Positions 39,156 through 40,463 of a DNA stretch of 40,463 nucleotides are shown here, piece by piece. The DNA is from Candidatus Peregrinibacteria bacterium Gr01-1014_25 (GTDB taxonomy: Bacteria; Patescibacteriota; Gracilibacteria; Peribacterales; Peribacteraceae). The stretch is from the NCBI GenBank assembly GCA_007376205.1, contig VMFU01000010.1:1-40463 (forward strand). Reading direction: 5' to 3'. The position numbers were made by a program, and so were the translations under genes. Within the stretch, counting starts at the first letter, position 1. Each line of letters opens with the position of its first letter. The notes under the pieces are model-generated. The model did not search any database and had not been told where the DNA came from. It was given only the letters and a program-made list of their open reading frames with translations.

Positions 39156-39230
39156 TGGCAGGGCCACGGGGAATCGAACCCCGGTTCTCAGGCTGAAAAC
39201 CTGATGTCCTAACCGCTAGACGATGGCCCC
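39156..39230 (-). tRNA. tRNA-Glu (TTC)
   Basis: 75 nt including an encoded CCA. The acceptor stem GGGGCCA pairs with TGGCCCT, with a G-T closing pair; the discriminator is G. The anticodon stem is TCAGG/CCTGA with loop TTTTCAG, anticodon TTC. The T arm is GGGGT-TCGATTC-CCC-type. A TATACT -10 lies at 39305-39300 upstream, giving a short 5' leader rich in CCTTGG microrepeat units. Confidence 0.95.
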
Positions 39231-39400: not shown

Positions 39401-39919
39401 ATGTCCGCAACCCCCATCAAGGCACTCGCCGTTTTTTCAGCCCTCGCGCTCCTCGCCGGATGCTCCGGCGCAATGCAGCAGAAGGCCGCTGAAGAGATGA
39501 TGGAGAACGCGATCGAGAAGGAGGCCGGCGGCGACGCGGACGTGGACATCGATGCCGCGGGCAAGATGCGCGTGACGACCAAGGAGGGAACGTTCACGAC
39601 CGGGAACCAGCTGCCCGCCGACTGGCCGAAGGACGCGCCGTCGTATGCCGGGGCGGAGGTGCAGTACGCCATGTCGACAAACCCCGCGACAGGCAAGCCG
39701 GGCGCGGCGGTCGTGCTGATGACCGACGACGGCATGCAGGAAGTCGCCAATTTCTACACCGATGCCCTCAAGGCAAACGGCTGGAGCATCGAATCGACGA
39801 TGAACGGCGCCGACACGACGATCATGGCCGCGACGAAGGACGGCCGGACGTTCTCGCTGGCGATCGTCAGCGCGGATGGCCAGACGACGATCACGGTCGG
39901 GATCGAGAACGCGGAGTGA
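39401..39919 (+). CDS. Lipoprotein, unknown
   Basis: 172 residues from ATG at 39401, the Met that gives a clean lipoprotein signal: MSATPIKALAVFSALALLAGC, with lipobox LAGC (Cys21). Readings that start upstream put residues before the signal. After the Cys, an acidic Ala/Glu helix (QQKAAEEMMENAIEKEAGG) precedes a compact alpha/beta domain (FTTGNQLPADWPKDAPSYAG, then EVANFYTDALKANGWSIES and TFSLAIVSADGQTTITVGI). The layout resembles small bacterial lipoproteins of unknown role. Monocistronic, followed by a bidirectional terminator that also serves the micro-ORF. Confidence 0.82.
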   Translation: MSATPIKALAVFSALALLAGCSGAMQQKAAEEMMENAIEKEAGGDADVDIDAAGKMRVTTKEGTFTTGNQLPADWPKDAPSYAGAEVQYAMSTNPATGKPGAAVVLMTDDGMQEVANFYTDALKANGWSIESTMNGADTTIMAATKDGRTFSLAIVSADGQTTITVGIENAE

Positions 39920-39943
39920 GGCACGCGAACGGGATAAAGAAAA

Positions 39944-39961
39944 AGCGGCCGGGAGGCCGCT
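39944..39961. terminator. Bidirectional terminator between lipoprotein gene and micro-ORF
   Basis: AGCGGCC (39944-39950) pairs with GGCCGCT (39955-39961) around GGGA. The minus-strand reading is followed by TTTTTCTTT, a strong U-tract; the plus reading by CTTTCCT, a weaker one. Confidence 0.75.
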
Positions 39962-39984
39962 CTTTCCTCTCTATGGGCTTCTGC

Positions 39985-40059
39985 TCAATGGCAGGTGCCG
40001 CATCCATCACCACCAAACATGGAAGAAGTGGGAAAGAAGTAGGATCCGCATCCTAGCAT
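39985..40059 (-). CDS. Cys/Gly micro-ORF (24 codons) ending in a CGTCH motif
   Basis: A minus-strand ORF of 24 residues that begins MLGCGSYFF and ends MFGGDGCGTCH, followed by TGA, then by a strong terminator. An internal ATG at 40020 would give just the last 11 residues. The last five, CGTCH, have the CxxCH form of heme-c attachment sites, although a 24-mer is unlikely to be a cytochrome. Two candidate promoters fit: TTGGCA-18 nt-TAGACA (40102 to 40073), giving an ATG nearly at the transcript end, in line with the leaderless rule here, or TAGACA-17 nt-TAGGAT (40078 to 40050) for the shorter form. Compact promoter-ORF-terminator framing and a Cys/Gly pattern argue for a real peptide. Metal-, heme- or modification-related roles are guesses. 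No family recognised. Confidence 0.45.
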   Translation of the reverse strand: MLGCGSYFFPTSSMFGGDGCGTCH

Positions 40060-40102
40060 GCAGGGCGGTGCGTGTCTAGCACTCGGAGCACTTGAGTGCC
40101 AA
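40050..40102 (-). promoter_or_regulatory. Promoter region of the micro-ORF
   Basis: Minus strand TTGGCA (40102-40097), 18 nt, TAGACA (40078-40073); also TAGACA as a -35, 17 nt, TAGGAT (40055-40050). The same TAGGAT hexamer is the rmuC -10. The second option would lie inside the 24-codon reading and so would favour the 11-residue form. Confidence 0.4.
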
Positions 40103-40193
40103 TTTCTGCTTGACTGCCTTGCGTCATTCTTTGTCACTTTCTTCTGCGGATATTTCAACATCTTTTTGTCCTTATAGAGGCAGTGGCCTTGCC

Positions 40194-40221
40194 ACTTTCT
40201 TTGTCACCACACAAAGAAAGT
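40194..40221. repeat. 11-bp perfect hairpin, ACTTTCTTTGT family
   Basis: ACTTTCTTTGT (40194-40204) and ACAAAGAAAGT (40211-40221) around CACCAC; GCCAAAGAAAAG follows. The same core as at 46-82. From memory this ACTTTCTTT...AAAGAAAGT palindrome is widespread in bacterial genomes. Confidence 0.7.
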
Positions 40222-40463
40222 AGCCAAAGAAAAGTCTCCGCCGTCTGACGTTCCAGCCGGGCATGGGGAAGAAGGAAAGGACGTGGACCGATCATTTCGG
40301 CTGCAGAGCACGCTGGTCCCTTCGGGACCCCTAAAGGGGCCGCGCGACGGCGGGAAAGCTACGTGGAGGGGTCCGCCGCCACGGGGGGTGAAGGGGTAGC
40401 GCCGCTTCATCCGTCGAGGAGCCGGACGGGAAGCCTTGGACCGTCCGGCGACGAGACACGGCG
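40222..40463. other. Non-coding tail of the window
   Basis: No convincing gene is seen. Two small hairpins, GGTCCC-TTC-GGGACC (40315-40329) and CCCC-TAAA-GGGG (40328-40339), lie within it and share three bases. Frames across the region are short and without recognisable motifs. It may belong to the same repeat block as 40194-40221. Confidence 0.4.

Follow-up and report, generated by a model that had tools for sequence, protein, structure and literature searches.

The minus strand of contig VMFU01000010.1 from Candidatus Peregrinibacteria bacterium Gr01-1014_25 carries, within the 40,463-nucleotide stretch analysed here (the window), a very short Gly/Cys-rich reading frame lying between a promoter and a terminator. 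Three questions arise: whether a frame of this size is a gene, when it would be expressed, and what its product could do.

Organization of the micro-gene

The gene is compact, running from position 40102 down to 39938 on the minus strand, and comprises a CIRCE operator, a promoter, a leader, a micro-ORF and a terminator. The HrcA-type operator (40076..40102) reads TTGGCACTC-N9-GAGTGCTAG, with AAGTGCTCC as the nine-nucleotide spacer between the arms; it matches the consensus and is kept in relatives. Its right arm shares bases with the -35 hexamer TAGACA (40073..40078), which was located by a promoter scan and by the relatives' alignment, and which is invariant across the 23 sequences of the alignment of operator-promoter relatives (A3). 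The minus-strand promoter postulated in the initial annotation was recovered as a sigma-70-like element (40078-40050, score 9/12), consisting of TAGACA, a 17-nt spacer and TAGGAT with a TG extension (extended -10 TGcTAGGAT, 40050..40058). The strong terminator proposed with it is likewise present, as an intrinsic hairpin (39938..39966) with a 12-bp stem, a U tract and a predicted energy of -21 kcal/mol (z -5.4); the hairpin also faces a convergent lipoprotein-like gene.

Judged from the position of the -10 element, transcription is expected to start near 40043, which would leave a C/T-rich 5' leader (40021..40043) that contains TTCTTTCCC and lacks a Shine-Dalgarno sequence. The frame is open upstream to an ATG at 40161 (58 residues), and a second ATG at 40059-40057 (24 residues) overlaps the extended -10 element. 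Given the expected start near 40043, both of these initiation codons would precede the 5' end of the RNA, and the two longer readings were rejected. The 24 genes that have the same arrangement of promoter elements share an ATG 49-57 nt past TAGACA; here it is the ATG at 40020, which yields the peptide MFGGDGCGTCH with its stop codon TGA at 39987-39985 (micro-ORF 39985..40020, minus strand). The 24-residue ORF first reported is therefore retained at its end, GGDGCGTCH followed by TGA at 39985, but not in its length, and the peptide most likely comprises 11 residues.

The composition of this frame is rare in the genome. Among 2638 ATG-started ORFs of 9-30 residues in 320 kb of the organism's own genome, only three reach at least 50% Gly+Cys with at least two cysteines, and of these only MFGGDGCGTCH follows a C/T-rich leader. 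The leader itself is of a more common kind. Ahead of the long ORFs in the same 320 kb, runs of eight pyrimidines occur upstream of the first ATG in 21% of cases vs 5-7% in controls, TTCCC is found around -14 and -10-like hexamers lie near the ATG (starts being taken as the first ATG, uncurated), while Shine-Dalgarno sequences show no enrichment. This pattern suggests that the genome uses non-Shine-Dalgarno initiation and short leaders. As C/T-rich leaders are enriched in this sample of the genome and Shine-Dalgarno sequences are not, the start region of the micro-ORF is of the local type; leaders of this type also precede other genes of the genome, and groES in relatives.

Downstream of the micro-gene and outside it lie the convergent lipoprotein-like ORF (39401-39919; LLAGCSG motif, no Pfam match) and, beyond that, tRNA-Glu(TTC) (39156..39230, minus strand; tRNA scan), a syntenic neighbour. 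In 27 micro-gene loci scanned, tRNA-Glu(TTC) is nearby in 12, in 10 of them downstream and on the same strand as here, and no other tRNA was found near any of them; five loci of the second layout described below have no tRNA-Glu. Just upstream of the micro-gene, at 40195-40223, is a palindromic repeat, CTTTCTTTGTCACCACACAAAGAAAGTAG, that occurs at 13 places in the genome. Several copies lie no more than about 150 bases from the end of a contig, and the element may be a dispersed repeat at which the assembly breaks. The genome measures 1.12 Mb. A search for bacterial ribosomal protein L30 (TIGR01308) gave matches in 10 of 14 controls and none in this genome or in 39 relatives; the small size and the lack of L30 are in keeping with an assignment to the Patescibacteria.

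The operator and the HrcA regulon

CIRCE is the operator of the HrcA repressor, with the consensus TTAGCACTC-N9-GAGTGCTAA (PMC3842655). The site ahead of the micro-gene agrees with this consensus and sits over the promoter, overlapping the -35 hexamer. The initial annotation did not mention it, and it is the best clue to function. A genome-wide scan with a degenerate CIRCE pattern, in which no more than one mismatch was allowed, gave six places: one ahead of the micro-gene itself and the others ahead of hrcA, dnaK, clpB, groES and the gene of a ClpC-like ATPase. HrcA is encoded in the genome, with a profile match of 181.7 bits that is below the NCBIfam curated cut-off of 197.2. The genome thus holds hrcA together with CIRCE sites ahead of chaperone genes, and since the same-genome sites precede class I heat-shock genes, the micro-gene has its operator in common with them. 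By analogy to these genes, the micro-gene is presumably repressed by HrcA and induced by heat.

The layout CIRCE-TAGACA-17-TATAAT was also seen in another family of the class, f28 (loci L054-L066). There it precedes dnaJ-like ORFs, and these matches were not counted as micro-genes.

Relatives and distribution

An initial protein search returned one convincing relative, the peptide MIGGDGCCGGCC of genome G035. A second route, in which the operator and promoter pattern was searched and the downstream sequence then read, gave 24 genes of the same layout (layout 1). A sequence model spanning operator to ATG (R1), applied to 353 genomes from the class, added one further layout-1 copy, in G076, and led to a second arrangement (layout 2), whose -35 hexamer (TTGAGA or TTGCGA) lies within the CIRCE spacer and right arm. 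A further model, R2, brought the number of genes to 40, spread over 38 of 74 family genomes and, by our own count, 21 of 40 genera. In the members, the operator and leader are followed by a Gly/Cys ORF and a recognisable hairpin with its T run. Operator and leader formed the search key, so that part of their conservation follows from how the members were collected; the key did not include the Gly/Cys ORF, the bias in codon positions or the terminators (judged by eye in the relatives). This recurrence of the anatomy agrees with the initial view of a self-contained Cys/Gly micro-gene below ordinary annotation size, and the recurrence of the whole unit in 38 of the 74 genomes, together with the three comparable frames among 2638, bears out the claim that such a Cys/Gly content exceeds chance.

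Two copies each are present in G096 and G026, and single copies elsewhere. In G026 (C13:503-800, L180) two micro-genes, MIGGNDGQSCGC and MIGGDEGGCCDGCK, lie in tandem, the second without a clear CIRCE. An ORF in G001 (C98:8028-8200, L181) follows the same kind of leader, with no CIRCE, and encodes 36 residues with GGDEKKPH repeats and no cysteine (MFGNDKKQPLLGGDEKKPHFGGDEKKPHLSGEQKKA); it is possibly a diverged relative and was left out of the 40 as uncertain.

No micro-gene was seen in about half of the family's genomes, several of which retain CIRCE ahead of chaperone genes. Beyond the family, none of the matches read was recognised as a micro-gene. Up to E 1e-6, R1 in 380 genomes of the phylum gave just two sites beyond the family, both f28 sites of the dnaJ-like kind, and R2 across the class at E 1e-6 matched the same family only; of the weaker R1 matches in other families of the class (353 genomes), a minority were read. 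Several other candidates were set aside. For a Hymenobacter tblastn match to the 58-residue query (L021), the stretch that was read holds neither CIRCE nor a comparable anatomy; this match was taken as chance, as were tblastn matches on plasmids with E values of 2 or worse. Matches to the pattern ATGNTNGGNGGNGAYGGNTGY in G016 and G012 (L023, L024) fall in Cys-rich repeat regions; both genomes carry true micro-gene copies elsewhere.

Composition and coding selection of the peptides

The 40 peptides are 9-29 residues long and 69% Gly+Cys (44% Gly, 25% Cys), with two to seven cysteines each; MSRGGDGCGSCC, MFTDGDGCGCGH, MSGGEKGGCCGCC and MISGPGCGSCGFGPGCGSCSFGPGCGSCS are examples. Cysteine is shifted toward the C-terminus, being within three residues of it in 38 of the 40, and none of 2000 shuffles of the set was as extreme. 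Gly+Cys amounts to 66% in the translated frame of the 24 layout-1 genes vs 1-6% in the other five frames. In three very close pairs, the changes at codon positions 1, 2 and 3 number [1,0,10], affecting nine codons synonymously and one not (P 1.3e-4 against equal positions), and in seven disjoint pairs they number [15,5,49]. That 10 of the 11 changes in the close pairs fall at third positions indicates that the peptide sequence is under selection. The check suggested at the outset, a search of relatives for a small conserved peptide with third-position variation, was thus passed.

Searches of Pfam and NCBIfam up to E 10 with the 58- and 24-residue readings gave no match, these being short queries with little power, and the peptides appear to belong to no described family in the libraries searched. 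Heme binding through the CxxCH ending, also put forward initially, does not hold as a family feature, since the motif occurs in one of the 40 peptides and in this species only.

Possible function of the peptide

Sequence comparison supports a promoter with an operator common to the chaperone genes, a conserved start, coding selection and a terminator, and the locus is very probably a regulated and translated micro-gene. In unstressed cells, HrcA bound to CIRCE over the -35 hexamer would block transcription. Proteotoxic stress would release HrcA and allow synthesis of a monocistronic mRNA of about 100 nt, whose C/T-rich leader would direct initiation at the ATG at 40020, and the peptide would build up alongside DnaK, GroES, ClpB and ClpC. 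As the most likely action, its cysteines, carried on a flexible glycine backbone, may then bind soft metal ions freed from damaged proteins and/or act as an expendable thiol. A chemical rather than a shape-specific role is suggested by the retention of a Cys-rich, Gly-flexible composition while sequence and length drift. The ligands of MFGGDGCGTCH, two cysteines and one histidine, are few for tight metal binding by one molecule. The metal or thiol mechanism is offered tentatively, and the statement as a whole, a stand-alone class I heat-shock gene for an 11-residue Gly/Cys peptide with metal or thiol action, is plausible but somewhat short of probable.

The main rival explanation, which we consider unlikely, is that the peptide acts as a small heat-shock effector: by binding HrcA, GroEL or a different chaperone, it would adjust repression or the handling of clients. 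The operator is common to exactly those heat-shock genes, and in other bacteria the activity of HrcA is dependent on GroELS (PMC3842655), a loop into which the peptide could feed. However, length (9-29 residues) and residue order drift widely, a pattern more in keeping with chemistry based on composition than with a specific binding surface, and roughly half of the family lacks the gene but keeps the regulon.

Small Cys-rich peptides often act outside cells, and a secreted or surface peptide serving under stress as a signal, toxin or cross-linking glue might be envisaged. The 40 sequences, however, have no hydrophobic stretch or signal peptide apparent by eye, and no dedicated exporter was seen beside the gene within the window, which makes this reading improbable. 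A precursor of a ribosomally made, modified peptide (RiPP) is quite improbable. Gly/Cys-rich cores and GG motifs do occur in RiPPs, but 9-29 residues are too short for leader plus core, the gene is free-standing behind its own terminator, and no maturation enzyme is found in the flanks as far as these were read. The toxin, signal and modified-peptide readings of the initial annotation found no positive support in the peptides, as inspected by eye, or in the part of the flanks that was read.

The small size and the short transcript with its promoter and terminator would also suit a small heat-shock RNA, or a role for the act of translating Gly/Cys codons, with the peptide incidental. Against this stand the third-position bias and the frame-specific composition. 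Moreover, the transcript bodies of four members fold like shuffles (z -0.71, -0.55, -0.44 and -0.06), and a structured RNA was rejected on that ground; the peptide being incidental is very improbable. A chance ORF between two genes, for which the very short length and the lack of a Pfam or NCBIfam match might speak, is refuted by conservation, as 21 genera hold 40 related genes of like anatomy, with coding selection and a shared tRNA-Glu neighbourhood, and has a negligible probability.

Relation to known systems and significance

The preferred reading, a heat-shock gene for a metal- or thiol-active peptide, can be compared with several known systems. Class I heat-shock genes (groESL, hrcA, dnaK, clpB) have the same type of operator overlapping the promoter; in contrast to them, the micro-gene is monocistronic and tiny, and its product is an 11-residue peptide and not a chaperone, protease or repressor. 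Escherichia coli has very small stress-induced proteins missed by annotation, which are alike in size and in having escaped annotation but differ in composition and control, and we know of no sequence relation between them and the micro-gene peptides. Bacterial metallothioneins, with about 50 residues or more, many cysteines and metal-sensing control, resemble the peptides in their high Cys content and possible soft-metal ligands, whereas here there are 9-29 residues, two to seven cysteines, a heat-shock operator and no family match. Glutathione and phytochelatins are short Cys/Gly peptides made by enzymes; as the micro-gene peptide is gene-encoded, they are analogous in the proposed action only. 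The C(P)XCG zinc-finger micro-proteins of Haloferax, most of which bound metal when measured, are also very small and Cys/Gly-rich, but they are archaeal, mostly 40-60 residues long and built on paired CxxC knuckles, with no homology shown (PMC11241148). Nothing relevant on CIRCE or HrcA in connection with Patescibacteria, small ORFs, metallothionein or Cys-rich small proteins was found in the open-licence literature. Both CIRCE control and small proteins induced by stress are of known kinds; the peptide family had no match in the libraries searched.

The micro-genes provide a selection-backed case of genes of fewer than 30 codons. They came to light by way of operator, leader and composition, and such genes can be searched for elsewhere in the same manner. 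The peptides can be synthesized chemically, so that their function can be tested directly, with no need for a culture of the host. As generally understood, the HrcA/CIRCE regulon consists of chaperones, proteases and their repressor. If the proposal is true, a conserved 11-residue peptide gene, transcribed on its own, within this regulon would be a heat-shock output overlooked in these bacteria. It is conceivable, though we lean toward doubt, that Gly/Cys peptides of 9-29 residues are a new class of heat-shock products, produced upon release of HrcA and unannotated because they are below the size limits of gene finders, and that they may serve minimal-genome bacteria as a dedicated thiol or metal buffer.
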